From Lachnoclostridium sp. An118 (GTDB lineage Bacteria; Bacillota; Clostridia; Lachnospirales; Lachnospiraceae), in the NCBI RefSeq assembly GCF_002160985.1, contig NZ_NFLQ01000015.1, forward strand, positions 1 to 64,000: a stretch of 64,000 bases of DNA. The letters are read 5' to 3'. The notes below the pieces were generated by a model that was not told the DNA's origin, made no database searches, and saw only the letters and a program-made list of their open reading frames with translations. The stretch's first letter is position 1. Every line of letters begins with the position of its first letter. The translations under genes were made by a program, and so were the position numbers. This document shows, piece by piece, positions 42,953 through 64,000 of this stretch.

Positions 42953-42991
42953 AAAAGCGGGGCTGTGCCTTGACGGCACAGCCCCGCTTTT
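42953..42991. terminator. Bidirectional terminator between transporter and LysR gene
   Basis: A perfect 17-bp stem (AAAAGCGGGGCTGTGCC with its complement) and a 5-base loop, with A-run and T-run at the two ends, sits between convergent genes. Confidence 0.93.
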
Positions 42992-48224: not shown

Positions 48225-51146
48225 ATGGAGATAAAAAACTGCAGAGCATATGAGCTGATCCGACGGGAGGAGCTGGAGGGGCTCAGATCCACGGGCTACC
48301 TCTTAAGACACAGGAGGAGCGGAGCAAGAGTGGTCCTCATCGAAAATGACGATGATAACAAAGTGTTCAGCATCGCCTTCCGCACACCGCCTTCAGACAG
48401 CACCGGGGTGCCTCATATCATGGAGCACTCGGTCCTGTGCGGGTCAAAGCATTTTCCGGCAAAGGATCCTTTTGTGGAGCTGGTGAAGGGCTCCCTGAAC
48501 ACATTTCTAAATGCCATGACCTACCCGGACAAGACGGTCTATCCGGTGGCCAGCTGCAATGACAGGGATTTCCAGAACCTGATGCATGTGTATATGGACG
48601 CTGTGCTGTATCCGAATATTTACGAGCACGATGAGATCTTCCGCCAGGAGGGGTGGAGCTACCGTCTGGAGGAGAAGGACGGGAAGCTGACCTACAACGG
48701 GGTCGTGTACAATGAGATGAAGGGGGCCTTTTCCTCACCTGAGGGTGTGCTGGACAGAGTGGTGCTGAATACCCTGTTCCCGGACACCTCCTACGCCAAT
48801 GAGTCCGGCGGGGACCCGGAGGTGATCCCGGAGCTGACCTACGGGCAGTTCCTGGATTTTCACCGGAGATATTACCATCCGTCCAACAGCTACATTTACC
48901 TCTACGGGGATATGGACATGGAGGAGAAGCTGAACTGGCTGGATGCGGAATATCTGAGCGCCTATGAGAATGAGCCGGTGGACTCGGCCATCCGTCTGCA
49001 GAAGCCTTTTGACAGGATGGTGGAAAAGGAGATCCCCTACTCCATCGCAAGCGATGAACCGGAGGAGGATAACACCTACCTCTCTTACAATAAAGTGATC
49101 GGCACCAGCCTGGACAAAGAGCTGTATCTGGCTTTCCAGATCCTGGATTACGCTCTTCTGTCCGCGCCGGGAGCGCCCCTCAAGAAGGCGCTGACAGACG
49201 CCGGTATCGGAAAGGACATCATGGGCTCCTACGACAACGGCATCTACCAGCCCATCTTCTCTGTTGTTGCCAAAAATGCCAACGCGGAGCAGAAAGAGGA
49301 ATTTATCCGCATCATCGAAGAGGTGCTGACAGATGCAGCGGACAAAGGCATAGACAAGAAAGCCTTGGAGGCGGGGATCAACTACCATGAATTCCGGTAC
49401 AGGGAGGCGGACTTCGGCAGCTATCCCAAGGGACTTATGTACGGGCTGCAGATGATGGACAGCTGGCTCTACGATGAAAACGAGCCATTTATGCACATTG
49501 ATGCCCTGGATACATTTGCGTTCCTGAAAAGTCAGGTGGGAACAGGGTACTATGAGGAGCTGATCCGGAAATACCTGCTGGACAACACTCACGGGGCCAT
49601 TGTCGTGGTGAAGCCGGAGAAGGGCCGCACGGCCAGGATGGACAGGGAGCTGGAGGAGAAGCTGGAGGCCCTCAAGGACAGCCTCAGCGATGCCCAGAAA
49701 GAGCGCTTGGTGGAGCAGACCAAAGAGCTGGAGGACTACCAGTCCCAGCCGGACAGGCCGGAGGATATTGAGAAGATCCCCGTGCTGCAGAGGACGGATA
49801 TTTCCCGGGAGATTGCGCCCATCATCAACGAGGAGATGACACTTGCCGGTGTGCCTGCTGTGTTCCACGAGACCTGGACCAACGGGATCGGCTATGTGGA
49901 TCTGATGTTTGATCTTTCGGATGTGCCGGAGGAACTGCTGGGGTATGTGGGTATCCTTCAGTCCGTGCTGGGCATTATCGACACGGAGAACTACGGATAC
50001 GGGGAACTGTTCAACGAGATCAACAGCCACACCGGCGGTATCGGCACATCCCTGGAGCTCTACAACGATGTGACAAGAGTGGAGGAGAAGGCATTCCGGG
50101 CCACCTTTGAGATCAAGGCAAAGGCTATGTACGGCCAGCTCCCCTTTGCCTTCCGCATGATGAGGGAGATCCTGACCGGGTCAAAACTGGAGGATACAAA
50201 GCGGATCAGGGAGATACTGGATATGCTGAAATCCCGGCTCCTCATGCGGTTCCAGTCCTCGGGACACACCACGGCCGCCCTGCGGGCACTGTCCTACGCC
50301 TCGCCCTCGGCGAAATTCAAGGATATGACAAACGGCATTGAGTTCTATCAGTTCGTGGCAGACCTGACAGACCACTTTGAGGAGAGAAAAGAGGACCTGA
50401 CCCGGACCCTTGAGACCCTGACCCGCCATATCTTCCGGGGAGACAATATGATGGTCAGCTACACCGCCTCCCGGGAAGGACTGGAAGGGATGGAGGAGCT
50501 GGCAGGAGAGATGAAGGAGAGCCTCTTCGCCGGGGAGGCGCAGGGGACGCCCTGCGTGATCCACTGCCAGAAGAAGAACGAGGGCTTCAGGACAGCCTCC
50601 AAGGTCCAGTATGTGGCCCGCACCGGCAACTTCATCGACCACGGGGCGTCCTACACAGGGGCCCTGCAGATACTGAAGGTGATCCTGAGCTACGACTACC
50701 TGTGGCAGAATATCCGCGTCAAGGGCGGTGCCTACGGCTGCATGAGCAGCTTTAACCGGATCGGGGAGGGATATCTGGTCTCTTATCGTGATCCTCATTT
50801 AAAGCGCACCATGGACGTGTACGAGGGTGTTGCGGACTATCTGAGAAGCTTCACAGTCAGCGACCGGGATATGAACAAATATATCATAGGTACCATCAGC
50901 AATCTGGATCAGCCTATGACCCCGGCGGCCAAGGGAGACAGGTCCATGAACCTTTATATGAACCATGTCAGCGCTGAGATGATACGGGCAGAACGGGCCC
51001 AGGTGCTGGACGCCACCCAGGAGGATATCCGGGCTCTGGCAGGCGTTGTGGAGGCTATGCTGGCGGCGGACCAGATCTGCGTCATCGGAAGCGAGGAGAA
51101 AATTGAGGAAAACAGGGACATGTTTGACAGTGTGACAAACTTTTAA
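48225..51146 (+). CDS. M16C zinc peptidase (presequence-protease/insulinase type)
   Basis: A 973-residue peptidase. The inverted zinc motif is PHIMEHSVLCGSKHFP (HxxEH), with a downstream glutamate in YNEMKGAFSSPE. The two halves, each of about 450-500 residues, form the enclosed chamber of the family. QNIRVKGGAYGC in the second half is the conserved R/Y substrate-binding element. It probably degrades small peptides in the cytoplasm, since no signal peptide is present. TATAAT (48172-48177) marks its promoter. It is followed by a palindromic REP-like element rather than an ordinary terminator. Confidence 0.92.
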   Translation: MEIKNCRAYELIRREELEGLRSTGYLLRHRRSGARVVLIENDDDNKVFSIAFRTPPSDSTGVPHIMEHSVLCGSKHFPAKDPFVELVKGSLNTFLNAMTYPDKTVYPVASCNDRDFQNLMHVYMDAVLYPNIYEHDEIFRQEGWSYRLEEKDGKLTYNGVVYNEMKGAFSSPEGVLDRVVLNTLFPDTSYANESGGDPEVIPELTYGQFLDFHRRYYHPSNSYIYLYGDMDMEEKLNWLDAEYLSAYENEPVDSAIRLQKPFDRMVEKEIPYSIASDEPEEDNTYLSYNKVIGTSLDKELYLAFQILDYALLSAPGAPLKKALTDAGIGKDIMGSYDNGIYQPIFSVVAKNANAEQKEEFIRIIEEVLTDAADKGIDKKALEAGINYHEFRYREADFGSYPKGLMYGLQMMDSWLYDENEPFMHIDALDTFAFLKSQVGTGYYEELIRKYLLDNTHGAIVVVKPEKGRTARMDRELEEKLEALKDSLSDAQKERLVEQTKELEDYQSQPDRPEDIEKIPVLQRTDISREIAPIINEEMTLAGVPAVFHETWTNGIGYVDLMFDLSDVPEELLGYVGILQSVLGIIDTENYGYGELFNEINSHTGGIGTSLELYNDVTRVEEKAFRATFEIKAKAMYGQLPFAFRMMREILTGSKLEDTKRIREILDMLKSRLLMRFQSSGHTTAALRALSYASPSAKFKDMTNGIEFYQFVADLTDHFEERKEDLTRTLETLTRHIFRGDNMMVSYTASREGLEGMEELAGEMKESLFAGEAQGTPCVIHCQKKNEGFRTASKVQYVARTGNFIDHGASYTGALQILKVILSYDYLWQNIRVKGGAYGCMSSFNRIGEGYLVSYRDPHLKRTMDVYEGVADYLRSFTVSDRDMNKYIIGTISNLDQPMTPAAKGDRSMNLYMNHVSAEMIRAERAQVLDATQEDIRALAGVVEAMLAADQICVIGSEEKIEENRDMFDSVTNF

Positions 51147-51223
51147 CAGGGGACGTAACACTTTTAAAAAGTGTTACGTCCGGATTAACACTAACTGGTG
51201 CGCAATTGTGCGCGATCCCCTGT
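51146..51223. repeat. Solo REP-like palindromic element (copy A)
   Basis: A perfect 31-base palindrome (51151-51181, arms GGACGTAACACTTTT) is followed by CTAACTGGTG and a second hairpin, GCGCA-ATTG-TGCGC. Outer arms ACAGGGGA (51146-51153) and TCCCCTGT (51216-51223) close the unit. The order TTACGTCCGGA, TTAA, CTAACTGGTG, then AATTGTG is shared with both copies flanking the transposase gene at 59 kb. It overlaps the last base of the M16C gene and precedes era. Confidence 0.8.
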
Positions 51224-51246
51224 GAAATGGAGTAAAAGGAGTTAAT

Positions 51247-52143
51247 ATGACAGACAATTTTAAATCGGGTTTTGCGACTCTCATAGGTCGCCCAAATGTC
51301 GGGAAATCAACGCTCATGAACTATCTGATCGGCCAGAAGATTGCGATAACATCCAACAAGCCCCAGACTACGAGGAACAGGATACAGACCGTGCTGACCA
51401 CGGAGGAGGGCCAGATCATCTTTGTGGACACGCCGGGCATACATAAGGCGAAGAACAAGCTGGGCGAGTATATGGTCAATATCGCTGAGCGCACCCTGAA
51501 CGAGGTGGACGTGGTGCTCTGGCTCGTGGAGCCCACCACGTTTATCGGGGCAGGTGAAAAGCACATTGCGGACCAGCTCCGGAAGGTGACAACACCGGTG
51601 ATCCTTGTGATCAACAAGGTGGATATGGTAAAGAAGGAGGACGTGCTCCCTGCTATCGCCGCCTACAAGGACCTCTACGATTTTGCCGAAATCGTGCCTG
51701 TATCTGCCAGGAGCGGAGAAAATACGGATGAGCTCCTGAAGGTGATCATGAAATACCTGCCCTTTGGCCCGCAGTTCTACGATGAGGACACCATCACAGA
51801 CCAGCCGGAGCGCCAGATCGTGGCTGAACTGATAAGGGAGAAGGCCCTTCACTGCTTAAATGAAGAAATCCCCCACGGCATCGCCGTGACGATAGAGAGC
51901 ATGAAAAAAAACAGGAAGGTCATGCACATCGATGCTACCATTATCTGCGAGCGGGACAGCCACAAGGGGATAATCATTGGAAAACAAGGAAATATGTTGA
52001 AAAAGATCGGCAGCACAGCCCGGTACGAAATTGAGAAAATGCTGGGATGCCAGGTAAATCTGAAGCTCTGGGTGAAGGTGAAAAAGGACTGGAGAGACAG
52101 TGAATACCTGATGAAAAATTTTGGATACCGGGAGGATGAATAA
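51247..52143 (+). CDS. era: GTPase Era
   Basis: An essential GTPase that binds 16S rRNA during 30S maturation. It has 298 residues. [14 protein letters not shown] (G1), TRNRI (G2 region), VDTPGIHKAKN (G3) and INKVDMVKK (G4) are clear. The C-terminal KH domain has ERDSHKGIIIGKQGNMLKKI (GxxG in GKQG). AAGGAG precedes the ATG. It lies just after a REP-like element and before a YqzL-like gene and recO, the usual era-yqzL-recO order. Confidence 0.96.
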   Translation: MTDNFKSGFATLIGRPNVGKSTLMNYLIGQKIAITSNKPQTTRNRIQTVLTTEEGQIIFVDTPGIHKAKNKLGEYMVNIAERTLNEVDVVLWLVEPTTFIGAGEKHIADQLRKVTTPVILVINKVDMVKKEDVLPAIAAYKDLYDFAEIVPVSARSGENTDELLKVIMKYLPFGPQFYDEDTITDQPERQIVAELIREKALHCLNEEIPHGIAVTIESMKKNRKVMHIDATIICERDSHKGIIIGKQGNMLKKIGSTARYEIEKMLGCQVNLKLWVKVKKDWRDSEYLMKNFGYREDE

Positions 52144-52198
52144 AAAGAACTGTCCAGAGGAGATGCTAACCTCATCAGGAACAGGATGAGGTGATACA

Positions 52199-52384
52199 AT
52201 GGAAGGATACTGGGACAGGTTCATGCGCTCGGGAGCGGTCAAAGACTATCTCGAGTACAAGGGAATGGAAAGATGCATGGAGATCATGCAGAAGTATGAC
52301 AGCGCTGTGGCCGGGATGGGAGAGGAGAAAAGTGGAGCAGATAATGTTGACAGGGATGGTCCTTTTGACCACTCCTATCGGTGA
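52199..52384 (+). CDS. Small YqzL-like protein between era and recO
   Basis: A 61-residue protein whose start YWDRFMRSGAVKDYLEYKGM recalls the YqzL family pattern (W-x-x-F-x-x-(T/S)G-x-x-x-x-YL-x-YK) found between era and recO in Firmicutes. GAGGTG lies eight bases before the ATG. It runs 41 bases into the start of recO in another frame, suggesting coupled translation. The C-terminal 20 residues, which lie over the recO start, are probably not conserved. Its function is unknown. Confidence 0.65.
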   Translation: MEGYWDRFMRSGAVKDYLEYKGMERCMEIMQKYDSAVAGMGEEKSGADNVDRDGPFDHSYR

Positions 52385-53078
52385 ATATGATAAGCGGGTC
52401 GTGCTGCTGACAAAGGAGCGGGGCAAGATTGCCGCATTTGCCAGGGGGGCGCGCAGGCCAAACAGCCTCCTGGCAGGTGCGACTGAACCCTTCTCCTTTG
52501 GCAGCTTTTCCCTGTATGAGGGGCGCACCTCCTACACGCTGGTATCCGCCTCTATCTCCAACTACTTTGCGGAGCTGCGGATGGACGTGGAGGGAGCCTG
52601 CTACGGGTTCTATTTTATGGACATTGCCAACTACTATGCACGGGAGGCGAATGATGAGACCCAGCTCCTGAAGCTGCTCTATCAGACCCTCCGGGCCCTG
52701 GCCAAGAAGTCCATCCCTGATAAACTGATACGGTACATATATGAGCTGAAGTCCATTACCATTAACGGAGAAGGACCGGATGTTTTCCACTGTGTAGTCT
52801 GCAGGAAAAATGCGGAGGGCAGCTCCTTCAGCCCCCTTAAGGGCGGCCTGGTATGTGACGGGTGCCGGCACCTCAGCGCGGACTGTCTGCCCATGGACCC
52901 ATCCACCCTCTACACGATGCAGTACATCGAGACTTCCAGCATTGAAAAGCTGTACACTTTTGCTGTCTCGGAGAAGGTGTTGGGTGAGCTGGGCCTGATC
53001 ATGAAAAGGTACATGGAAATCTATGTGGACCGCCATTTTAAGTCGCTGGATATACTGGAGCAGATGATCGGGGCTTGA
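52344..53078 (+). CDS. recO: DNA repair protein RecO
   Basis: Loads RecA on SSB-coated DNA together with RecR. It has 244 residues, and the N-terminal OB fold reads MLTGMVLLTTPIGEYDKRVV and RGARRPNSLLAGATEPFSFG. The C-terminal zinc site is CVVCRKN and CDGCRH. The frame is open further upstream, but the ATG at 52344, with GGAG seven bases before it, gives the standard start and length. Confidence 0.92.
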   Translation: MLTGMVLLTTPIGEYDKRVVLLTKERGKIAAFARGARRPNSLLAGATEPFSFGSFSLYEGRTSYTLVSASISNYFAELRMDVEGACYGFYFMDIANYYAREANDETQLLKLLYQTLRALAKKSIPDKLIRYIYELKSITINGEGPDVFHCVVCRKNAEGSSFSPLKGGLVCDGCRHLSADCLPMDPSTLYTMQYIETSSIEKLYTFAVSEKVLGELGLIMKRYMEIYVDRHFKSLDILEQMIGA

Positions 53079-53103
53079 AAACTGCGGTGGTTAACGGTAT
53101 AAT
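53075..53103 (+). promoter_or_regulatory. glyS promoter
   Basis: TTGAAA (53075-53080), 17 bases, TATAAT (53098-53103). The -35 overlaps the recO stop codon. Confidence 0.65.
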
Positions 53104-53143
53104 ATTGACATTATCCAGAACTATATAAAGGAGAGGAAGAAAA

Positions 53144-54535
53144 ATGGTTGAAAAGACAATGGACAAGATCGTGGCCCTTGCGAAATCAAGAGGTTTTGTC
53201 TATCCGGGGTCTGAGATTTACGGCGGTCTTGCAAATACATGGGACTATGGAAATCTTGGCGTGGAACTGAAAAACAACGTAAAGAGGGCATGGTGGCAGA
53301 AATTTGTCCAGGAAAATCCATACAATGTAGGTGTGGATTGTGCAATCCTGATGAATCCCCAGACATGGGTGGCATCCGGGCATCTGGGCGGCTTCAGCGA
53401 TCCCCTGATGGATTGTAAAGAGTGCCATGAGAGATTTCGCGCGGACAAGATGATCGAAGACTTTGCCCAGGAGAACGGCATTGACATCGGCCCTACCATT
53501 GATGGATGGAGTCACGAGCAGATGGAGGCCTTCATCAAGGAACACAGTGTTCCATGCCCGTCCTGCGGAAAACATAATTTTACAGAGATACGGGAGTTCA
53601 ATCTCATGTTCAAGACCTTCCAGGGAGTGACAGAGGACGCTAAAAATACTGTGTATCTGCGGCCGGAGACAGCCCAGGGTATTTTTGTAAACTTTAAGAA
53701 TGTGCAGCGTACATCCAGGAAGAAGATCCCGTTTGGTATCTGCCAGATCGGAAAATCCTTCCGAAATGAGATCACACCCGGAAACTTTATCTTCCGTACA
53801 AGAGAATTTGAGCAGATGGAGCTGGAATTCTTCTGTGAACCGGGAACGGACCTTGAATGGCACGCTTACTGGAAGAAATACTGTCTTGACTGGCTGAAGA
53901 CACTTGGGATCAAGGATGAAGAAATCCGTCCGAGAGACCATTCACCTGAGGAGCTGTGCTTCTACAGCCGTGCGACCACGGATGTGGAATTTCTCTTCCC
54001 CTTCGGATGGGGTGAGCTCTGGGGTATCGCTGACAGGACAGATTACGACCTGAGCCAGCATCAGGAGGTTTCCAAGCAGGATCTGACTTACTTTGACGAT
54101 GAGAAGAAAGAAAAATATATTCCCTATGTCATCGAGCCTTCCCTGGGAGCAGACAGGATGGTCCTTGCCTTCCTGTGCAGCGCCTACGATGAGGAGGAGC
54201 TGGAGGGCGGAGACATGCGCACGGTCCTTCATTTCCACCCGGCGATCGCACCCGTGAAGATCGGTGTGCTGCCTCTCTCTAAAAAGCTGAGCGAGGGAGC
54301 TGAAAAGGTTTATGCGAAGCTCTGCAAAAAGTACAACTGTGAGTTTGACGAGCGGGGCAATATCGGAAAGCGTTACCGCCGTCAGGATGAGATTGGAACG
54401 CCCTACTGCGTGACCTATGATTTCGAGTCGGAGGAGGATGGCGCAGTGACTGTCCGCGACAGAGATACCATGGAGCAGGAGAGAGTGAAGATCGAGGATC
54501 TGGAGAAATATTTCGAAAAGAAATTTGAATGGTAA
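53144..54535 (+). CDS. glyS: Glycyl-tRNA synthetase (single-chain, class II)
   Basis: Charges tRNA-Gly. At 463 residues it is the homodimeric type, not the alpha/beta type. It begins [20 protein letters not shown]. Class II motif 2 is in [20 protein letters not shown] and motif 3 in [23 protein letters not shown]-like [13 protein letters not shown] is also present. The C-terminal anticodon-binding domain begins near residue 365 ([10 protein letters not shown]). AAAGGAGAGG precedes the ATG. No T-box leader is seen, as only 65 bases separate it from recO. Confidence 0.96.
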
Positions 54536-54567
54536 GACAGCAGCAGAAAGTAAAAAGAGTTGATAAG

Positions 54568-54626
54568 AAAAGGAGTGTTGCAAAATAGATGAGTCATTCA
54601 TCTGTGGAGCAATGCTCCTTTTTTGT
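54568..54626 (+). terminator. Terminator after glyS
   Basis: AAAAGGAG (54568-54575), extended through TGTTGC, pairs with GCAATGCTCCTTTT, with an inner GATGA/TCATC hairpin, followed by a T-run. Confidence 0.85.
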
Positions 54627-54861
54627 GCTTAAAATAGAAAACGGACTCCAAAGGTCGTGATCCATGGTATCATCAGATATGAGCAATATCAAAAAATACA
54701 ATAAGTTTCCCAGAACATTTATTTATCCAGAAGGGTTGAGACGGCGTGTGAGCGGATGTCAACTTTATGTGGCTGCTGGCAGGAAGAACCCTTTCGTATC
54801 TTTTCTGAACCAGGAGTATGTCCACAAACAGAGGGATACTCTCTTGATTTTTCCATAAACA
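54627..54861. other. Gene-poor stretch between glyS and sstT
   Basis: About 235 bases with no recognisable gene. A 64-codon open frame at 54664-54858 on the plus strand lacks a ribosome binding site and recognisable motifs. I see no promoter or repeat here. Confidence 0.4.
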
Positions 54862-54910
54862 GAACAAGGGTGCCGCCCGATCCTCTGATCTGATGATCGG
54901 GCGGCACCCT
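54862..54910 (-). terminator. Terminator of sstT
   Basis: A perfect 16-bp stem (arm AGGGTGCCGCCCGATC) with a 12-base loop, read on the minus strand after the sstT stop, followed by TTGTTCTGTTT. Confidence 0.8.
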
Positions 54911-54946
54911 ATTCTACTTGCCGTATATTTACTTGTCTGTATTATC

Positions 54947-56212
54947 TTATTTGTTCTTAGGAACTTTGAAGCGAGCTTCCGGCTTTCCAACGTAGTTCTC
55001 AGGGTGAAGCCGTCTGTCGCGGAACTCCGCACAGGCTGTGTAGAGAACATCTGTGGAAGAGTTGATACCTGTCTCGCAGGAATCCTGGATAACGCCGATG
55101 ATGAAGCCTACGCCGACAACCTGCATAGCGATATCGTTCGGGATGCCGAAGAGGCTGCAGGCGAGCGGGATCAGCAGAAGGGAACCGCCGGCCACGCCGG
55201 AAGCTCCGGCCGCACTTGCTGCTGCCAGTACGCACATGATCAGAGCGGATCCGAAGGATACCTGGATGTCCAGTGTTGTCGCTGCTGCCAGCGCCATGGT
55301 GGAGATCGTGATAGCGGCTCCGGCCATGTTGACTGTGGATCCCAGCGGGATGGAGATAGAATATGTATCCTCATCCAGGTTCAGCTTCTTACAGAGCTCC
55401 ATGTTGACCGGGATATTGGCGGCAGAGCTTCTTGTGAAGAACGCCGTGATAAAGCTCTCTTTTAAGCAGGTGAACACGAGCGGGTATGGATTTTTGCGCA
55501 CACATATAAATGTAACAAGCGGGTTGATGATAAAAGCGACAACCGCCATACTGCCAACCAGAACAGCGATCAGCTTTCCGTACTCTACAAGTGCACCCAG
55601 TCCCTGCTCGGAGATGGTGCCGAAGATCAGGCCCATGATACCGAAGGGAGCACAGCTGATAACCCACTGCACGGCAACGGAAACGGCCTCGGAGATATCC
55701 TCCAGGGCTTTTTTCGTGCCGGGGCCGGCCTTCTTGAGGGCTACGCCGAAGATGATGGCCCATGCCAGGATGCCGATGTAGTTGGCGTTCACGATGGCAT
55801 TCACCGGATTGTCCACCAGGTTCATCAGAAGGTTGGTCAGCACTTCTACAACGCCGCTCGGGGGAGCTACATCACTTGTAGCAGTGTTCTCGGAGAAGGT
55901 TACGGTGACCGGGAAGATATAGTGCGCGATCACAGCTACCAGAGCGGCCAGAAGGTTGCCCAGGCAGTAGAGGATCACGATGGCCTTCATGTTGGTCTTC
56001 TGTCCTTCGCCCATGTGGCACAGTGCACTCATGACCAGGAAGAATACCAGGACGGGTGCAACGCCGCGGAGCGCCCCAACGAACAGATCTCCGAGAATGG
56101 AAATGCCGGTTGCCTGTGGAACAGCAAGCCCCAGGATGATACCGATGATCAATCCGCAGATGATACGCGTTACAAGACTGATGCTGTTCCATTTTTTGAT
56201 TAGATTTTTCAT
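54947..56212 (-). CDS. sstT: Serine/threonine:Na+ symporter
   Basis: A 421-residue transporter of the dicarboxylate/amino acid:cation family. SLVTRIICGLIIGIILGLAV starts the membrane core. FFTRSSAANIPVNMELCKKL and GSTVNMAGAAITISTMALAA are the substrate-site hairpin and helix, with RSSAANIP and STVNMAGAA close to the SstT forms. The best ribosome binding site (GAGGAGAA, 56250-56243) is about 30 bases upstream, with a GCAGAT/ATCTGC hairpin between. It is divergent from the threonine-degrading tdh-kbl operon, supporting threonine/serine as substrate. Confidence 0.88.
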   Translation of the reverse strand: MKNLIKKWNSISLVTRIICGLIIGIILGLAVPQATGISILGDLFVGALRGVAPVLVFFLVMSALCHMGEGQKTNMKAIVILYCLGNLLAALVAVIAHYIFPVTVTFSENTATSDVAPPSGVVEVLTNLLMNLVDNPVNAIVNANYIGILAWAIIFGVALKKAGPGTKKALEDISEAVSVAVQWVISCAPFGIMGLIFGTISEQGLGALVEYGKLIAVLVGSMAVVAFIINPLVTFICVRKNPYPLVFTCLKESFITAFFTRSSAANIPVNMELCKKLNLDEDTYSISIPLGSTVNMAGAAITISTMALAAATTLDIQVSFGSALIMCVLAAASAAGASGVAGGSLLLIPLACSLFGIPNDIAMQVVGVGFIIGVIQDSCETGINSSTDVLYTACAEFRDRRLHPENYVGKPEARFKVPKNK

Positions 56213-56543
56213 ACTTTTTTTCGCAGATATGTTTGGATCTGCTTCTCCTCTCTTTCTCTCATGATTTCAGTTGCTGTATTTCCTGATAGGACTTATTATC
56301 GCATATTATCATCAATAATGCTATAGAAAAAGTGAAAAAACTTGTAAAAAGTAGAATAAATCTTACAAAAATGTTATAAGATTAACAATTAAAATAATGC
56401 AAAATGCATAAAATTTGTCAATATATAATTGTAGTCACTGGCCAGGAGTGCTATAATAAACAAAGGCAGGCTGCCGCTATTTTTTATAGAATATTTCTAT
56501 AAAAACGGGGCAGTAATTGATAGAATATGGAGGTATGTATATC
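56213..56543. promoter_or_regulatory. Divergent sstT/tdh region with tdh promoter and leader hairpin
   Basis: A strongly AT-rich 330 bases. TTGTAG (56429-56434), 17 bases, TATAAT (56452-56457) is the tdh promoter. In the leader, TTTTTATAGAA (56481-56491) and TTCTATAAAAA (56495-56505) form a perfect 11-bp stem with a 3-base loop, bracketed by CTGCC (56471-56475) and GGCAG (56509-56513). GGAGG at 56528-56532 precedes the tdh start. No gene is seen. Confidence 0.6.
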
Positions 56544-57608
56544 ATGGGAGAAGGAAAAAATGATGGAATGATGTGGGCGCTTGTCAAGGAGAAACCGGAA
56601 GAGGGACTCTGGATGAAGCGAGTACCCATACCGGAGGTAGGACCGAATGATGTGAAGATCAAGATCCACAAGACAGCGATCTGCGGGACAGACGTACATA
56701 TCTGGCAGTGGAATGACTGGGCACAGCATACGATTCCCATTGGTCTTACGGCCGGCCACGAGTATGTTGGGGAAGTCGTGGAGACAGGGGAAGGCGTTCG
56801 CGGATTTAATATCGGTGACCTGGTGTCCGGAGAAGGACATATCACATGTGGAAAATGCCGCAACTGTCTGGAAGGACACAAGGAAAACTGCAAGGATGCC
56901 AAGGGTGTGGGTGTAAACCGCAACGGAGCGTTTGCGGAGTATCTGGTCATCCCGGCTTCCAACGTATGGCCCTGCAATCCTAATATACCGGAAGAGATGT
57001 ATGCGATTTTCGATCCCTTTGGAAATGCGACCCACACAGCTCTTTCCTATGACGTGCTGGGTGAGGATGTACTGGTGGCAGGCGCAGGCCCCATCGGTAT
57101 CATGGCAGCAGCTATCGTAAAATTTGCGGGCGCAAGACACGTGGTGGTGACAGATTTCAACGAGTACCGTCTCGACCTGGCAAAGAAGCTGGGTGCTACC
57201 AGGGTAGTTGATCTGGGCAAAGAAAAGCTTCCGGATGTTATGAAAGAGATCGGAATGACAGAGGGCTTTGACGTTGGTCTTGAGATGTCCGGTTCCCAGG
57301 CAGCGCTCCACGATATGATCCACAATATGAAGCACGGCGGCAAGATCGCGCTTCTCGGACTGCAGAGGACAGATGCCAAGGTGGATCTGGAGACCGTCAT
57401 CTTCAACGGACTGAACCTGCGCGGTATTTATGGAAGAAAGGTATGGGATACATGGTACAAGATGTCCACTATGCTTCAGGCTGGTCTGGATATCAGCGGC
57501 ATTATCACGCACCATTTCGACATCAAAGATTACCGCAAGGGATTTGAGGCGATGATTTCCGGAGAGTCCGGCAAGGTGATCCTGGACTGGGCCCATGTAA
57601 ATGACTGA
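56544..57608 (+). CDS. tdh: L-threonine 3-dehydrogenase
   Basis: Oxidises threonine to 2-amino-3-ketobutyrate with NAD+. It has 354 residues and belongs to the zinc alcohol dehydrogenase superfamily. The catalytic zinc ligands are in [12 protein letters not shown] and AGHEYVGEV. The structural zinc site is [15 protein letters not shown]. The NAD fold is [31 protein letters not shown] near the end is typical of Tdh. Several in-frame ATGs exist; I choose the one at 56544, 11 bases after GGAGG. It is followed by kbl, which uses its product. Confidence 0.92.
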
Positions 57609-57746
57609 TCGCCGGTCCTGGGGTGATATGCCGGCCCGAAGGTGCCGGGAAACGGCATCGCAGGGGACGTACTATCATCATAGGCTGCGATGAAAATGTA
57701 CGCAGGAAGCTGCATTAATAATAAGGTAAAGGAGCGAAAAAAGAAA

Positions 57747-58943
57747 ATGGCACGTAAAGACGATATTTTAAGCATTTATGCAAAAGAAGTGGAGGGAATC
57801 AAGGAAGCAGGACTGTTTAAAGGCGAGGCGCCTTTCGTTTCTCCGCAGGGGGCAAGAGTCACCATGGAGGATGGAAGAGAGCTCCTCTGCATGTGCGCAA
57901 ATAACTATCTGGGCCTGGGCGACAGCCCGAGGCTGATCGAGGCTGCCAAGAAAACATATGACGAAAAAGGATTTGGCGTGGCATCCGTGCGATTCATCTG
58001 CGGAACACAGGATATCCATAAGGAGCTGGAGAAGACTATCTCCGATTTCCTTGGAACAGATGACACCATCCTGTATTCCTCTTGCTTTGACGCCAACGGC
58101 GGACTTTTCGAGACACTTCTGACAGCTGATGACGCAGTGATCAGCGATGAGCTGAACCATGCTTCCATCATTGACGGCGTGCGCCTGTGCAAGGCAAAGA
58201 GATACCGCTATAAAAACAACGACATGGAGGACCTGGAAGCTAAGCTGAAAGAGGCTGACGAGGCCGGAGCCAGGATCAAGCTGATCGCTACAGACGGTGT
58301 GTTCTCCATGGATGGAATTATCTGTAACCTGAAGGGCATCTGCGATCTGGCAGACCAGTACAACGCGCTGGTCATGGTGGATGACAGTCATGCAGTCGGA
58401 TTTGTCGGAAAGACAGGACGGGGAACTCCTGAGTACTGCGGCGTGCAGGGACGTGTGGACATTATCACAGGTACTCTTGGAAAAGCCCTCGGCGGAGCAT
58501 CAGGCGGATACACATCCGGCCGCAAGGAGATCATCGACCTTCTCCGCCAGAGAAGCCGTCCGTATCTGTTCTCCAACTCCCTTGCTCCCGCTATTGCAGG
58601 CGCCAGCATTGAGATGTTCAGGATGCTGGATGAGAGCACAGAACTTCGGGATCATCTGGAAGAAGTGACAGCTTACTACAGAAAACTTCTTGTGGACAAC
58701 GGCTTTGACGTGATCCCGGGCACACATCCCTGCGTCCCTGTCATGCTGTACGATGAGAAGACAGCAGCAGAATTTGCAAAGCGTATGGTGGACAAGGGGG
58801 TATATGTAGTTGCCTTCTCCTACCCGGTTGTACCGAAGGGCAAGGCCAGGATCCGTACACAGGTGTGTGCAAGCCATACAAAAGAAGATATCGATTTCAT
58901 CGTAAAATGCTTCATCGAAGTAAGAGAAGAGATGGGATTGTAA
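57747..58943 (+). CDS. kbl: 2-amino-3-ketobutyrate CoA ligase (glycine C-acetyltransferase)
   Basis: Splits 2-amino-3-ketobutyrate with CoA into glycine and acetyl-CoA. It has 398 residues and is a PLP enzyme of the alpha-oxoamine synthase family. [32 protein letters not shown] and [17 protein letters not shown] are conserved. The PLP lysine is in [15 protein letters not shown]. The ATG at 57747 follows AAAGGAG. The 138-base gap after tdh shows some weak dyads but no gene. With tdh and sstT this forms a threonine uptake and degradation module. Confidence 0.94.
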
Positions 58944-58955
58944 TATGTAATTCCG

Positions 58956-59033
58956 TTAATTCCGGACGTAATACTTTGCAAGAGTATTACGTCCGGAATT
59001 AAACTAACTGGTGTGTAATTGTGTGAAATGTCC
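58956..59033. repeat. REP-like element, upstream copy (copy B)
   Basis: A 20-bp perfect stem (58956-58975 with 58983-59002, arm TTAATTCCGGACGTAATACT) with a 7-base loop is followed by CTAACTGGTGTG and GTGTAATTGTGT (59013-59024). The 33 bases 58983-59015 recur exactly, inverted, at 59858-59890 on the other side of the transposase gene. Confidence 0.85.
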
Positions 59034-59068
59034 CTGTGGCAAGTGAGAGGAGAGATATTTTGCCACAG
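59034..59068 (+). promoter_or_regulatory. Hairpin holding the transposase start codon
   Basis: CTGTGGCAA (59034-59042) and TTGCCACAG (59060-59068) form a perfect 9-bp stem. The 17-base loop contains the Shine-Dalgarno AGGAGA (59048-59053), while the TTG start codon (59060-59062) is inside the stem, so initiation should be weak or controlled. Confidence 0.6.
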
Positions 59069-59827
59069 AGAAAAAGACAGGAGAGTAGTACCGGCATATA
59101 CCACGTTGTTGGAAAAGGAATAGCCCGGGAAAATAATTTCGATCAGACAAGAGAAAAGAAATATTTCCAGAAAATTATCAGAAAATATCAGAGTAAATAT
59201 GAAGTAAAAATCTATGCCTATTGTATCATGTCGAATCATGTGCATATTATGATAGGGGCAGAGCTTCAGGTTTTATCTTTGTTCATGGCCAGGATCCTGG
59301 CAGAATACGCATTTTATTATAATTATAAACACAACCGTAATGGGCATGTGTTTCAGAATCGTTTTACAAGTGAATGTATTGAGACAGAATCTTATTTCTG
59401 GAATTGTCTTCGCTATATTCATATGAACCCGGTAAAAGCCGGAATGGTGGCGCATGCAGGAGATTACCGCTTCAGCAGTATGAAAGAGTTCTTTTCTGGG
59501 AAAGATCCGCTGATACATCCAGACAGTATACAACTAGTAAAACAGAGATTTTGTGATAGGATGTCTTTTGATGATTTCCATGGAAAGAGGAAGTACGAAA
59601 TTTTCCAGGATACCTATGAGGAAATGGAGCAGCAGAGGATTGAGATTGCAGAAAGAATCGCAAGAGAAATGTATGCGCAGGCAAAGATGAATTATCTCAG
59701 CCAGGTGTTTGAAGAAAAAGAATATCGGGAAGAATATGTGGAAAGGATTCAACAGACACTGCATGTATCACAGCGCAAATCTAAACTTCTATATTCAAAA
59801 GTAAAAAATCAGGTAAAAAACAACTGA
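59060..59827 (+). mobile_element. REP-associated tyrosine transposase (RAYT, IS200-like)
   Basis: A 255-residue single-strand DNA transposase of the Y1/HUH class. It starts PQRKRQESSTGIYHVVGKGI, which matches the usual RAYT start. The HUH metal site is MSNHVHIMIGAE. YAFYYNYKHNRNGHVFQNRF and YIHMNPVKAGMVAHAGDYRF are the other conserved blocks. The basic, helical C-terminal tail (IAREMYAQAKMNYLSQ and onward) extends past the core. I use the TTG at 59060, six bases after AGGAGA; a GTG at 59036 lies before that site. The gene is AT-rich compared with its neighbours and sits between inverted REP-like copies, in the kbl-pepM18 gap. Confidence 0.88.
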
Positions 59828-59908
59828 CACAATTACACGGGGAATATTTCATAAAAGCACACCAGTTAGTTTAATTCCGGACGTAATACTTTTCAAAAGG
59901 ATCACGTC
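59827..59908. repeat. REP-like element, downstream copy (copy C, inverted)
   Basis: Reads as the inverse of copy B. ACACAATTACAC (59827-59838) comes first, then a spacer of about 19 bases absent in copy B, then CACACCAGTTAG and a hairpin arm GGACGTAATACTTTT. The hairpin (59878-59908) has two mismatches in 15. It begins exactly at the transposase stop. Confidence 0.82.
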
Positions 59909-59920
59909 CCCCATCAAATG

Positions 59921-59929
59921 TGTTATACT
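59921..59929 (+). promoter_or_regulatory. Extended -10 promoter of the M18 aminopeptidase gene
   Basis: TGT-TATACT (59921-59929) is an extended -10 element lying just beyond REP copy C. The -35 position falls inside the repeat and is poor, so the insertion may have altered this promoter. Confidence 0.45.
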
Positions 59930-59960
59930 ATACCCATCATCAAAAAGGAGGTCTACAACG

Positions 59961-61370
59961 ATGGAAAGAACAAATGCATGGCTTGGCTATACACAGGAGC
60001 AGCTTGGAGAGCTGGAGCGCATCAACAATTTATACAAATGCTGCCTGGATGAGGGCAAGACGGAGCGGGAGTGCGTGAAAGCTGCTGTCCGCATTGCGGA
60101 GGAAAAGGGATACAGGGATTTAAAAGATGTCATTGAGAAGGGAGAATCCCTAAGAGCCGGAGACAAAGTCTATGCGGTGTGCATGGGCAAGAGCATACTC
60201 CTGTTCCACATGGGAGAACAGCCTTTGGAGAAGGGAATGAACATACTGGGCGCCCACATTGATTCCCCGCGTATTGACGTAAAGCAGAATCCTCTCTATG
60301 AAAGCGAGGAGCTGGCCTATCTGGACACCCATTATTATGGAGGGATAAAAAAATACCAGTGGGTGACTCTGCCGCTGGCTCTTCACGGCGTAGTGGCGAA
60401 AAAGGACGGGGCCGCCGTGGATATCTGCATAGGAGAGAAGGAGGATGAGCCTGTCTTTGCAGTGACTGACCTCCTTGTCCATCTGGCAGGAAAGCAGCTG
60501 GAGAAAAAGGCTAACATTGTCATAGAGGGCGAGAAGCTCGATCTCCTTGTGGGCAGCAGACCCCTGTCCGGAGAGAGCGGCGGGGAGGACGAAAAGGAAA
60601 AAGCGGGGAAAGAGGCGGTGAAACAGCAGATCATGCAGCTCCTGCGCGACAACTATGATATCGATGAGGAGGATTTCTGCTCCGCAGAGCTGGAGATCGT
60701 TCCAGCCGGACGGGCCCGGGACTGCGGCCTTGACCGCAGCATGATCATGGCCTACGGACAGGACGACAGAGTCTGCGCATTCACATCCCTGTTCGCCATG
60801 ATGGACACGGCTGATCTGAAAAAGACCGCCTGCTGTATCCTTGTAGATAAGGAGGAGATCGGCAGTGTGGGCGCTACCGGCATGCACTCCAGGTTTTTTG
60901 AAAACACGGTGGCGGAGGTGCTGGCGCTCAGTGAGGGCGAGTCAGAGCTGAAGCTGCGCCGGGCCCTGCAGAATTCCAAGATGCTCTCCTCTGACGTGAG
61001 CGCTGCCTATGACCCCATGTACGCGGAAGTATTTGAAAAGAGAAGCTCTGCCTTCTTTGCCAAGGGGCTTGTGTTCAACAAATTTACCGGAAGCAGGGGA
61101 AAAAGCGGTTCCAATGACGCCAATGCGGAGTATCTGGCACAGATCCGGCGGGCTATGGATGACCGGAATGTTGCCTACCAGTTTGCCGAGCTCGGAAAGG
61201 TAGATGCGGGCGGAGGCGGGACTATCGCCTATATCATGGCAAATTACGGCATGGAGGTCATTGACAGCGGCGTGGCTGTCCTGTGCATGCACGCCCCCTG
61301 GGAGATCACCAGCAAAGCCGATGTGTACGAGGCGTATAAAGGGTATAAAGCATTTCTCCAGGAGATGTAA
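59961..61370 (+). CDS. M18-family zinc aminopeptidase
   Basis: A 469-residue aminopeptidase I-type enzyme that trims N-terminal residues, preferring acidic or neutral ones in the family. The metal and active-site segments are NILGAHIDSPRIDVKQNP, MAYGQDDRVCAFTSLFAMMD, LVDKEEIGSVGATGM, SSDVSAAYDP and GVAVLCMHAPWEITSK. AAGGAGG precedes the ATG by nine bases. It has no signal peptide, so it acts in the cytoplasm. Confidence 0.93.
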   Translation: MERTNAWLGYTQEQLGELERINNLYKCCLDEGKTERECVKAAVRIAEEKGYRDLKDVIEKGESLRAGDKVYAVCMGKSILLFHMGEQPLEKGMNILGAHIDSPRIDVKQNPLYESEELAYLDTHYYGGIKKYQWVTLPLALHGVVAKKDGAAVDICIGEKEDEPVFAVTDLLVHLAGKQLEKKANIVIEGEKLDLLVGSRPLSGESGGEDEKEKAGKEAVKQQIMQLLRDNYDIDEEDFCSAELEIVPAGRARDCGLDRSMIMAYGQDDRVCAFTSLFAMMDTADLKKTACCILVDKEEIGSVGATGMHSRFFENTVAEVLALSEGESELKLRRALQNSKMLSSDVSAAYDPMYAEVFEKRSSAFFAKGLVFNKFTGSRGKSGSNDANAEYLAQIRRAMDDRNVAYQFAELGKVDAGGGGTIAYIMANYGMEVIDSGVAVLCMHAPWEITSKADVYEAYKGYKAFLQEM

Positions 61371-61446
61371 TATGTCAGGCTTTGACGGAGCATTTCGGAA
61401 AAAGCAGGACCCGTGCATATTATTTGAGAACTTACTGGTTAAGGAC

Positions 61447-61475
61447 TTGACGAACCATGGCAAAAACAGTAAAAT
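61447..61475 (+). promoter_or_regulatory. ppdK promoter
   Basis: TTGACG (61447-61452), 17 bases, TAAAAT (61470-61475), 60 bases before the ppdK start. Confidence 0.65.
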
Positions 61476-61534
61476 ATTATGTGCAAATTACTAGATGTTA
61501 CTAGAAAGAAAAAATTTTAGGAGGTCATTGGAAC

Positions 61535-64000
61535 ATGGCAACAAAATGGGTTTATATGTTCACAGAAGGCAATGCGACCATGAGAAACCTTCTTGGCGGA
61601 AAAGGCGCCAACCTCGCTGAGATGACAGGCCTGGGACTCCCGGTACCGCAGGGATTTACCGTTACGACAGAGGCTTGTACACAGTACTACGAGGACGGAA
61701 GACAGATCAATGACGAGATCATGGATCAGATCATGGCTGCTATGGCTAAGCTTGAGGAGATCACAGGAAAGAAATTCGGAGACAAAGAGAATCCGCTTCT
61801 CGTTTCCGTTCGTTCCGGTGCAAGAGCTTCCATGCCTGGTATGATGGACACGATCCTGAACCTGGGATTAAATGAGGAAGTTGTTGAGACTCTGGCAGAG
61901 GCTTCCGGTAACCCGCGCTGGGCTTGGGACTGCTACAGAAGATTCATCCAGATGTACTCTGATGTAGTTATGGAAGTTGGTAAGAAATACTTTGAAGAGC
62001 TTATCGACAAGATGAAAGAAGAGAAAGGTGTTACACAGGATGTTGACCTGACAGCAGAGGATCTGAAGACTCTTGCAGGACAGTTCAAGGCTGAGTACAA
62101 AGAGAAGATTGGCTCTGACTTCCCGTCTGACGCTAAAGAGCAGCTGATCGGAGCTGTTAAGGCTGTGTTCCGTTCATGGGACAACCCGAGAGCAAACGTA
62201 TATCGTCGTGACAACGACATCCCGTATTCATGGGGAACAGCTGTCAACGTACAGATGATGGCATTTGGTAACATGGGTGATGACTGTGGTACAGGTGTTG
62301 CCTTCACGCGTGATCCTGCTACAGGAGAGAACGGACTTTTCGGTGAGTTCCTGACAAACGCACAGGGCGAGGACGTTGTTGCCGGCGTGCGTACACCTAT
62401 GCACATCGCAGAGATGGAAGAGAAATTCCCGGAGGCATTTGCTCAGTTCAAGAGCGTATGCAAGACTCTGGAGACACACTACAGAGATATGCAGGACATG
62501 GAGTTTACTGTAGAGCACGGCAAGCTGTACATGCTGCAGACACGTAACGGTAAGAGAACAGCTCAGGCTGCTCTTAAGATTGCCTGCGACCTGGTTGACG
62601 AGGGAATGAGGACAGAGGAAGAGGCTGTTGCAATGATCGATCCCCGTAACCTGGATACACTGCTCCATCCCCAGTTTGACACTGCTGCACTGAAGGCTGC
62701 TACTCCTATGGGCAAAGGTCTTGGAGCTTCTCCTGGAGCTGCCTGCGGTAAGGTTGTCTTCACAGCTGATGACGCTGTAGAGTGGGCTGCAAGAGGCGAG
62801 AAGGTTATCCTTGTTCGTCTTGAGACATCACCTGAGGATATCACAGGTATGAAGTCTGCTCAGGGTATCCTGACAGTCCGCGGTGGTATGACATCTCACG
62901 CAGCCGTTGTTGCCCGTGGTATGGGTGAGTGCTGCGTATCCGGATGCGGTGACATCGTTATGGACGAGGCAAATAAGAAATTCACACTTGGTGGAAAAGA
63001 GTTCCACGAGGGAGATGCTATCTCTATCGATGGTTCCACAGGTAATATCTACGACGGTATCATCCCGACAGTAGACGCTACGATCGCTGGTGAGTTCGGT
63101 CGTATCATGGACTGGGCTGACAAATACAGGACAATGAAAGTCCGCACAAATGCAGATACACCGGAGGACGCGAGAAAAGCTGCTGAGCTTGGCGCTGAGG
63201 GTATCGGACTTTGCCGTACAGAGCATATGTTCTTCGGCGAGGGAAGAATTGACGCATTCCGTGAGATGATCTGTGCTGAGACAGAGGAAGAGAGAGAGAA
63301 AGCTCTTGAGAAGGTCCTTCCGTATCAGCAGAGCGACTTCGAGAAGCTGTACGAGGCTCTGGAAGGCAACCCGGTAACGATCCGTTTCCTTGACCCGCCG
63401 CTCCATGAGTTCGTTCCGACAGAGGAAGAGGACATCAAGAAGCTGGCAGAGGCTCAGGGCAAATCCGTTGAGAGGATCAAAGAGATCATCGACAGCCTCC
63501 ATGAGTTCAACCCGATGATGGGTCACCGTGGATGCCGTCTGGCTGTAACATATCCTGAGATTGCAAAGATGCAGACAAAGGCTGTTATCCGCGCGGCTAT
63601 CAATGTACAGAAGGCTCATCCGGGCTGGAAGGTTCAGCCGGAGATCATGATCCCGCTTGTTGGCGATATCAAAGAGCTGAAATACGTGAAGAAATTCGTT
63701 GTTGAGACAGCTGACGCTGAGATCGCTGCTGCAGGAAGCGACCTGGAGTACGAAGTTGGTACGATGATCGAGATCCCGAGAGCTGCTCTTACAGCTGACG
63801 AGATTGCTGCAGAGGCTGATTTCTTCTGCTTCGGTACAAACGACCTGACACAGATGACATACGGCTTCTCCCGTGACGATGCAGGTAAGTTCCTTGACGC
63901 TTACTATGATGCTAAGATCTTCGAGAACGATCCGTTCGCAAAACTGGATCAGGTTGGCGTTGGCAAGCTGATGAAGATGGCTATCGACCTTGGAAAACCG
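61535..64000 (+). CDS. ppdK: Pyruvate, phosphate dikinase (3' end beyond window)
   Basis: Interconverts pyruvate, ATP and phosphate with phosphoenolpyruvate, AMP and pyrophosphate. It begins MATKWVYMFTEGNATMRNLL, 10 bases after AGGAGG (61519-61524), and stays open to the window end: 822 codons, of about 875 expected. The nucleotide-binding domain includes LLGGKGANLAEMTGLGLPVP and SVRSGARASMPGMMDTILNL. The phosphohistidine is His455 in GGMTSHAAVVARGMG, the same number as in the well-studied Clostridium symbiosum enzyme. The PEP-binding barrel follows (GLCRTEHMFFGEGRI, NPMMGHRGCRL, FFCFGTNDLTQMTYGFSRDD). The catalytic cysteine near residue 831 lies outside the window. Its uniform codon use suggests high expression. 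Confidence 0.97.
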   Translation, partial: MATKWVYMFTEGNATMRNLLGGKGANLAEMTGLGLPVPQGFTVTTEACTQYYEDGRQINDEIMDQIMAAMAKLEEITGKKFGDKENPLLVSVRSGARASMPGMMDTILNLGLNEEVVETLAEASGNPRWAWDCYRRFIQMYSDVVMEVGKKYFEELIDKMKEEKGVTQDVDLTAEDLKTLAGQFKAEYKEKIGSDFPSDAKEQLIGAVKAVFRSWDNPRANVYRRDNDIPYSWGTAVNVQMMAFGNMGDDCGTGVAFTRDPATGENGLFGEFLTNAQGEDVVAGVRTPMHIAEMEEKFPEAFAQFKSVCKTLETHYRDMQDMEFTVEHGKLYMLQTRNGKRTAQAALKIACDLVDEGMRTEEEAVAMIDPRNLDTLLHPQFDTAALKAATPMGKGLGASPGAACGKVVFTADDAVEWAARGEKVILVRLETSPEDITGMKSAQGILTVRGGMTSHAAVVARGMGECCVSGCGDIVMDEANKKFTLGGKEFHEGDAISIDGSTGNIYDGIIPTVDATIAGEFGRIMDWADKYRTMKVRTNADTPEDARKAAELGAEGIGLCRTEHMFFGEGRIDAFREMICAETEEEREKALEKVLPYQQSDFEKLYEALEGNPVTIRFLDPPLHEFVPTEEEDIKKLAEAQGKSVERIKEIIDSLHEFNPMMGHRGCRLAVTYPEIAKMQTKAVIRAAINVQKAHPGWKVQPEIMIPLVGDIKELKYVKKFVVETADAEIAAAGSDLEYEVGTMIEIPRAALTADEIAAEADFFCFGTNDLTQMTYGFSRDDAGKFLDAYYDAKIFENDPFAKLDQVGVGKLMKMAIDLGKP

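Follow-up and report, generated by a model that had tools for sequence, protein, structure and literature searches.

RAYT transposases and the repeats that accompany them have been described in several arrangements, among which the TIRtrons and TIRYTs come closest to the locus analyzed here. TIRtrons were described by Di Nocera et al. (2013; PMC3733652) as having terminal inverted repeats (TIRs) with the motif GGGGWSAS, which form moderately abundant families, and repeats without an obvious correlation to the RAYT genes; the words Firmicutes, Clostridi- and Lachno- are absent from the main text of that paper. In the survey of Quentin et al. (2018; PMC6006769), 20 of 26 TIRYTs belong to subclass 2.1, for which the automatic or manual searches given there did not find REP-like sequences, while IS200 enzymes are characterized by a Y---Q motif and by having no C-terminal extension. 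The RAYT biochemistry that we found in print (PMC8266576) concerns enzymes of the GTAG type. We found no report of such repeats in Firmicutes in the open-access literature, so priority is not established. The DNA analyzed in this work, referred to as the window, is a stretch of 64,000 nucleotides from Lachnoclostridium sp. An118, a strain that falls in the genus of Claveliimonas bilis (Lachnospiraceae).

The RAYT gene occupies positions 59060-59827 of the forward strand and encodes a protein of 255 amino acids from a TTG start behind AGGAGAG, or of 263 if read from a GTG at 59036. Its product exceeds the cut-offs of NCBIfam NF047646 REP_Tyr_transpos (85.5 bits vs 80) and of Pfam Y1_Tnp, in agreement with a previous reading of the sequence alone (the sequence-only reading), which had named it a Y1/HUH transposase. 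Residues H60, H62 and Y119 are invariant across 32 aligned homologues. In a structural search with the predicted model (mean pLDDT 92.7), the top hit was 4er8, the complex of a RAYT with a REP hairpin (TMt 0.74), and IS200/IS605 transposases came next, including distant matches to IS608 and ISDra2; when structures were searched by sequence, 4er8 was the sole chain at E <= 0.001 (E 0.00097), the five weaker chains up to E 1 being unrelated by name. The HUH motif NHVH and the Y motif YIHMNP, together with FQNRF and FSSM, agree with the published table for subclass 2.1 (compared by eye), model residues 154-254 form a predicted helical C-terminal extension without a Pfam HTH match, where the subclass has an extension that resembles a helix-turn-helix, and the gene is flanked by the long TIRs that characterize TIRYTs of this subclass. 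By its protein motifs, and by the TIR motif of its relatives, the enzyme fits TnpA-Y1 subclass 2.1 (TIRYT/TIRtron).

With regard to these TIRs, the two 33-base blocks at 58983-59015 (forward) and 59858-59890 (reverse) are exact reverse complements (33/33), as had been claimed, and the match extends into 71-nt arms that are 80% complementary; the best inverted match between the two flanks scores 39.5, compared with a maximum of 14.5 in 60 Markov-1 resamplings. The left unit (58952-59026, forward strand) consists of a palindrome at 58956-59002, with 20-nt arms, followed by the tail AACTGGTGTGTAATTGTGT (59006-59024), which points toward the gene. As single-stranded DNA this palindrome folds at -20.9 kcal/mol (z -8.6). 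The right unit (59847-59921, reverse strand) is inverted and its palindrome (core 59879-59909) is decayed, with -7.1 and -7.2 kcal/mol and z values of -1.7 and -2.4 for the two strands. The second shared block that had been noted farther in is GTGTAATTGTGT, present at 59013-59024 and, inverted, at 59827-59838 (reverse strand), where it is displaced inward and so lies farther from the palindrome than on the left side. Allowing up to 2 mismatches, the palindrome arm has 6 matches in the window against 0.09 expected, all of them in the two flanking copies and in a third, solitary unit at 51139-51213 (forward strand), ahead of a GTPase gene that looks by eye like era. At gathering scores, Rfam matched no known structured RNA in positions 50000-64000.

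Some other features of the window were observed along the way. Between 59031 and 59071, the start region of the RAYT gene, TTGCCACAGAGA, can pair with the innermost part of the left flank, TCCCTGTGGCAA, so that the ribosome-binding site is enclosed; RNA folds of this stretch in six genomes contain a stem at this place with different letters (single minimum-energy folds, without shuffles), and translation of the RAYT may be held down in this way. A stretch of about 105 bp at 54808-54916, which contains a strong hairpin (54867-54910), is matched at 79-80% in several parts of genome G004 and could be a shared terminator or another repeat, and a 39-nt GC-rich palindrome behind a gene at 42953-42991 looks like an ordinary bidirectional terminator.

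A majority of 15 aligned copies defined the palindrome of the unit as GGACGTAAYACTTTT-N-AAAAGTRTTACGTCC with variable outer arms, followed by AATTAA and then by AACTGGTGTGTAATTGTGT. The alignment shows the unit as a hairpin whose foot is GGAC, often GGGGAC, and whose tail lies on one side, and this bears out the earlier remark that the repeat does not resemble GTAG/GGAG-headed REPs; on the basis of this foot in the 15 units, a GTAG-type REPtron was rejected. A genome-wide count of copies, proposed in the sequence-only reading along with a check that they are intergenic, gave 32 distinct units, hence not only the flanking ones, for a single RAYT. The units were obtained by reducing 65 matches of profile R1 at E <= 1, many of which were both strands of one palindrome; the structure of R1 was two columns out of register, so that it acted as a sequence profile with misplaced pairs, and its matches were backed by separate pattern searches, among them a one-arm pattern (up to 3 mismatches) with 30 matches in the whole genome and 0 for the reversed control. 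Besides the 2 units at the RAYT gene, 6 form three inverted pairs of 296-297 bp, 2 lie around a 2.4-kb gene pair and 22 are found elsewhere. The check supported a dispersal outside genes: no ORF of 80 aa or more runs through the palindrome in 17 of the 32, while one or more do in the other 15. No Pfam match was found for 7 of the 8 longest of these ORFs, which cross 7 units, and the helicase domain of the eighth is about 200 residues away. Many units lie close behind stop codons, and by eye no T run follows the stem on either strand.

Conservation of the stem was analyzed with 86 distinct rows from six genomes, an alignment in which some palindromes are entered from both strands. With the register corrected, 88.7% of cells were paired, against 82.7% after shuffling and 32-46% in slid registers, and two-sided changes numbered 148 against 65.5, a value reached in none of 500 shuffles. 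This covariation shows that the stem is conserved as a stem. Twelve inverted pairs of 240-298 bp from four genomes were also aligned; ten of them have a common interior with a terminator-like hairpin, at several different loci (by eye), which suggests that the pairs constitute a MITE-like element. In a different arrangement (L095 2259-4738; G000:C12:121258-123737), two inward-facing units enclose an operon for putative DNA repair proteins (TIGR03916 rSAM_link_UDG and TIGR03915), and unit pairs with similar spacing exist in all six RAYT-bearing genomes of the genus, three of the loci having been compared.

Within the genus, 6 of 11 genomes carry the RAYT, always in one copy and at the same locus, next to the genes for glycine C-acetyltransferase (kbl) and an M18 aminopeptidase, which is the pattern of a single-copy, vertically inherited gene. 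Full-length copies, comprising gene and ends, were not found in these six genomes. Of 15 genome pairs, 13 are saturated or not computable at silent sites; the remaining two, G000/G005 and G001/G002, have dN/dS ratios of 0.14 and 0.06, respectively, which indicate that the RAYT is under purifying selection. At E <= 0.001, R1 gave 26-52 matches (both strands counted) in the six RAYT-bearing genomes and no units in the five RAYT-less congeners, where the best 150 candidates per genome were scored. Copy number thus followed the presence of the RAYT, a point that the sequence-only reading had proposed to test, and the result named there as refuting, many copies in genomes that lack this RAYT, did not occur in the genus. 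Fisher's value is 0.002 and ignores phylogeny; the RAYT-less congeners are also more distant, and shared descent therefore explains part of the association. A plain palindrome pattern yielded 28, 25, 29, 9, 31 and 30 matches in the six genomes and 0-2 in the other five, although these counts are noisy, because reversed controls gave 6-13 and 1-5, respectively, and G003 (9 vs 7) is hardly above its control. By these profile matches, the units of the genus are shown to occur only together with the RAYT. Among the matches listed for the RAYT-less congeners no empty site for the gene was found: G007 has both neighbor genes, on different contigs, G008, G009 and G010 have only the aminopeptidase gene, and G006 has neither.

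The turnover of the units is slow. Orthologous sites exist in G003 as well as G005 for at least 21 of the 32 units, in one of the two for 8 and in neither for 3; the comparison covered the fetched sites, so the shared-site counts are lower bounds, and most unit sites are old. For 12 variable sites the two flanks were joined and used as queries against 11 genomes, and five of the sites were aligned. The unit at C23:170805 is present in G000 while the site is empty in G003, G004 and G005, and would most simply be a gain. The other four fit loss as well as gain, some flanks being different too: the unit at G005:C1:139445 is also in G004 and absent from G000 and G003, that at G005:C33:136547 is also in G003 and absent from G000, that at G000:C34:215786 is in G004 and G005 and absent from G003, and that at G000:C2:50110 is in G003 and G005 and absent from G006.

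A wider search found 373 related stretches, and the 80 best were retained. Of the first 17 loci (L127-L143, beginning with Eubacterium sp. ER2 and Claveliimonas bilis as L127 and L128), 15 have the gene between TIRs of one architecture, consisting of a GG(A/C)CG palindrome, CG(T/G)CC, an AATT-like link and usually then GGTGTACC or CCTGTCCC. The palindrome is a different one at L137 and a short GGGGTC one at L142; no convincing TIR was seen in the flanks of L145-L149, L151 and L152, and some more distant loci again show GGGGAC-type TIRs. As for the dispersed palindromes, the tail was one-sided in many, not all, of those inspected, a sample of 20 loci in G023, which has 306 palindromes, and 20 in G012, which has 50.

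The lower-stem words of the palindromes were compared with those flanking the RAYT genes. Three stem words were counted in 23 genomes, and a RAYT search at E <= 1e-10 in the 17 genomes of other genera gave 24 matches, whose flank words were then read. Where a RAYT carried the word at its flank, which was the case in 19 genome-word cells, the palindromes numbered 6, 9, 10, 12, 20, 26, 26, 26, 27, 34, 36, 37, 38, 44, 50, 50, 76, 306 and 319, compared with 0-5 in the other 50 cells; labels were read from the TIRs, some of them debatable, and the TIR copies are included in the counts. The flank word was the abundant word in 19 of 19 cells. Three genomes (G011, G012 and G013) have two words and two RAYTs each and are rich in both words, the second RAYT of G016 accounts for 44 copies of GGACGGGG, and a partial RAYT at a contig end in G018 for 34 of GGACGTAG; the gene in G025 is also partial. 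Small numbers of GGACGGGG without a RAYT carrying this word occur in G021 (5) and G018 (3). As for debatable labels, in G015 the two TIR arms carry different words; the label chosen was GGACGTAG, and choosing the other would give a cell of 1. A second RAYT match in this genome (L278) has no TIR, and the second TIR of G012 has CTCCGTCC on one arm. When word sets were permuted among the 21 RAYT-bearing genomes, the best of 20,000 trials, which ignore relatedness, reached 14 matches against the 19 observed. In other genera too, then, the word flanking the RAYT and the abundant word of the genome are shown to agree in these counts, and recognition by word is strongly suggested.

Several of these loci have features of their own. 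The second RAYT of G013 (L277; G013:C50:25938-26369) has one internal stop, and the genome keeps 37 palindromes with its flank word. G023 and G022 (L268 and L269) each combine more than 300 GGACGGGG palindromes with a single detected RAYT. In two Faecalicatena genomes, G012 and G011 (L274 and L276), the second RAYT is apparently at the same locus, behind the apparent end of a prolyl-tRNA synthetase gene (by eye).

In a RAYT tree with 27 labelled rows and an outgroup of 3, from which L277 (stop) and L279 (partial), among others, were left out, the word changes 5 times, compared with 15.3 after shuffling (0 of 200 as low). GGACGTAA forms one clade, while GGACGGGG requires 2 changes and GGACGTAG 3, neither being a single clade, and the word largely follows the RAYT tree. 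Among the units themselves, 4 of 20 loci in G012 share a gene neighbor with a unit locus of G000. At three gene boundaries common to both genomes, upstream of era, upstream of valS (both named by eye) and behind the gene next to C15:37871, a unit is at the same place, with GGACGTAG in G012 and GGACGTAA in G000. At the fourth locus, the gap at C54:101031, the G012 unit is at the other end of the gap, and G004 has an inverted pair in apparently the same gap. The difference in word at orthologous boundaries fits descent with change; independent insertion at favored spots could also produce it.

We give a probability of roughly three in four to the reading in which a domesticated RAYT of the TIRYT kind, present as one copy and inherited vertically, has a family of dispersed units of its own, which, we infer, it recognizes and moves. 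As judged by sequence comparison, a RAYT with its own repeat family in a Gram-positive lineage is real. The description of the locus as a Gram-positive REPtron therefore stands insofar as a RAYT is associated with its own dispersed palindromic repeat, but not as to the name, the type being that of TIRYTs/TIRtrons and not of a GTAG REPtron. The HUH/tyrosine enzyme would recognize the hairpin in single-stranded DNA through the foot, the lower-stem word and the tail, would nick beside it, and would copy or move the units, while the RAYT gene itself would stay fixed between kbl and the M18 aminopeptidase gene. If an enzyme lineage changed its preferred word, units with the old word would decay or be replaced, so that word and enzyme would change together. 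A more specific proposal, to which we give even chances, is that subclass 2.1 RAYTs of Lachnospiraceae read a stem-word code, made of a shared GGGGACG foot and a lower-stem word set by the enzyme lineage (ACGTAA, ACGTAG, ACGGGG and others), and that enzyme and dispersed palindromes change the word together, partly at the same orthologous sites.

Other explanations of these data have to be considered. The palindromes could be host elements, such as terminators, mRNA stabilizers or protein-binding sites, multiplied by other means, with the RAYT merely located between two of them. Their frequent position close behind stop codons would be in line with this, as would the fact that 12 of 12 inverted pairs flank an interior, mostly with a terminator-like hairpin (by eye); the absence of units from the five RAYT-less congeners, the identity between their word and that of the RAYT flanks in all 19 cells and the lack of a T run argue against it, and we consider it unlikely. 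If, on the other hand, RAYT and repeats were ancestral and had simply diverged along the same tree, with no functional link today, the genus split would be expected to follow one genome group and most unit sites to be shared by descent, as is the case. Such plain co-inheritance is distinctly improbable, however, given the genomes with two RAYTs that are rich in both words, the failure of permuted word sets to reach 19 matches (with relatedness ignored) and the purifying selection on the RAYT. The HUH/Y1 fold, the hairpins at both ends and the distant structural matches to IS608 and ISDra2 transposases could also correspond to an ordinary insertion sequence of the IS200 type that ends in hairpins, with the scattered units as its dead ends. 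This is very unlikely, however, given that six genomes have one gene copy each, all at the same kbl/M18 locus, and given the class 2 motif Y---NP and the C-terminal helical extension; an ordinary IS200 element was rejected on account of the single copy and the class 2 motifs.

The reading of a domesticated RAYT with its own units assigns a repeat partner to a RAYT subclass reported without any, and includes two gut Lachnospiraceae genomes in which more than 300 palindromes coexist with such RAYTs. Matched enzyme-repeat pairs bear on how RAYTs recognize and spread repeats, and since the pairs differ in their words, and some genomes have two enzymes with a word each, recognition could be tested by swapping. 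Were the stem-word code true, it would represent a natural series of orthogonal recognizers of single-stranded hairpins.

In comparison with known systems, the locus has long terminal inverted repeats and moderately abundant TIR families in common with TIRtrons/TIRYTs of subclass 2.1, and its RAYT has their NH[V]H, FQ, Y-I-H-x-N-P and SS motifs and a C-terminal part that is likewise long. The tail of the relatives' TIRs (CTGTCCCC, the complement of GGGGACAG) fits GGGGWSAS, whereas the right copy in the window carries GGGGGACG, which is unlike this motif. The locus differs from TIRtrons/TIRYTs in that the TIR is a palindrome plus a tail dispersed as 32 units in this genome, with up to 319 palindromes in a relative, and in that lineage-specific stem words match the RAYT. 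A single-copy RAYT with flanking and dispersed, mainly non-coding palindromes has been described for the GTAG REPtron of Escherichia coli TnpA-REP (in the account of PMC8266576), and the catalytic fold is that of 4er8, but here there is no GTAG/GGAG foot, and the GGAC-footed stem is longer, the tail one-sided and a C-terminal extension present; compared with a classic REP the unit is longer and asymmetric, and some units are arranged in inverted pairs of 240-298 bp. As in REPINs (according to PMC8049555), non-autonomous repeats are tied to a vertically inherited, single-copy RAYT, although the single unit is here a long palindrome in itself and the spacer of the inverted pairs, 240-298 bp in total, often contains a terminator-like hairpin. 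Finally, IS200/IS605 elements such as IS608 and ISDra2 resemble the locus in their HUH/Y1 transposase and in the hairpins near their ends, and the single fixed gene copy and the class 2 motifs set it apart from them.
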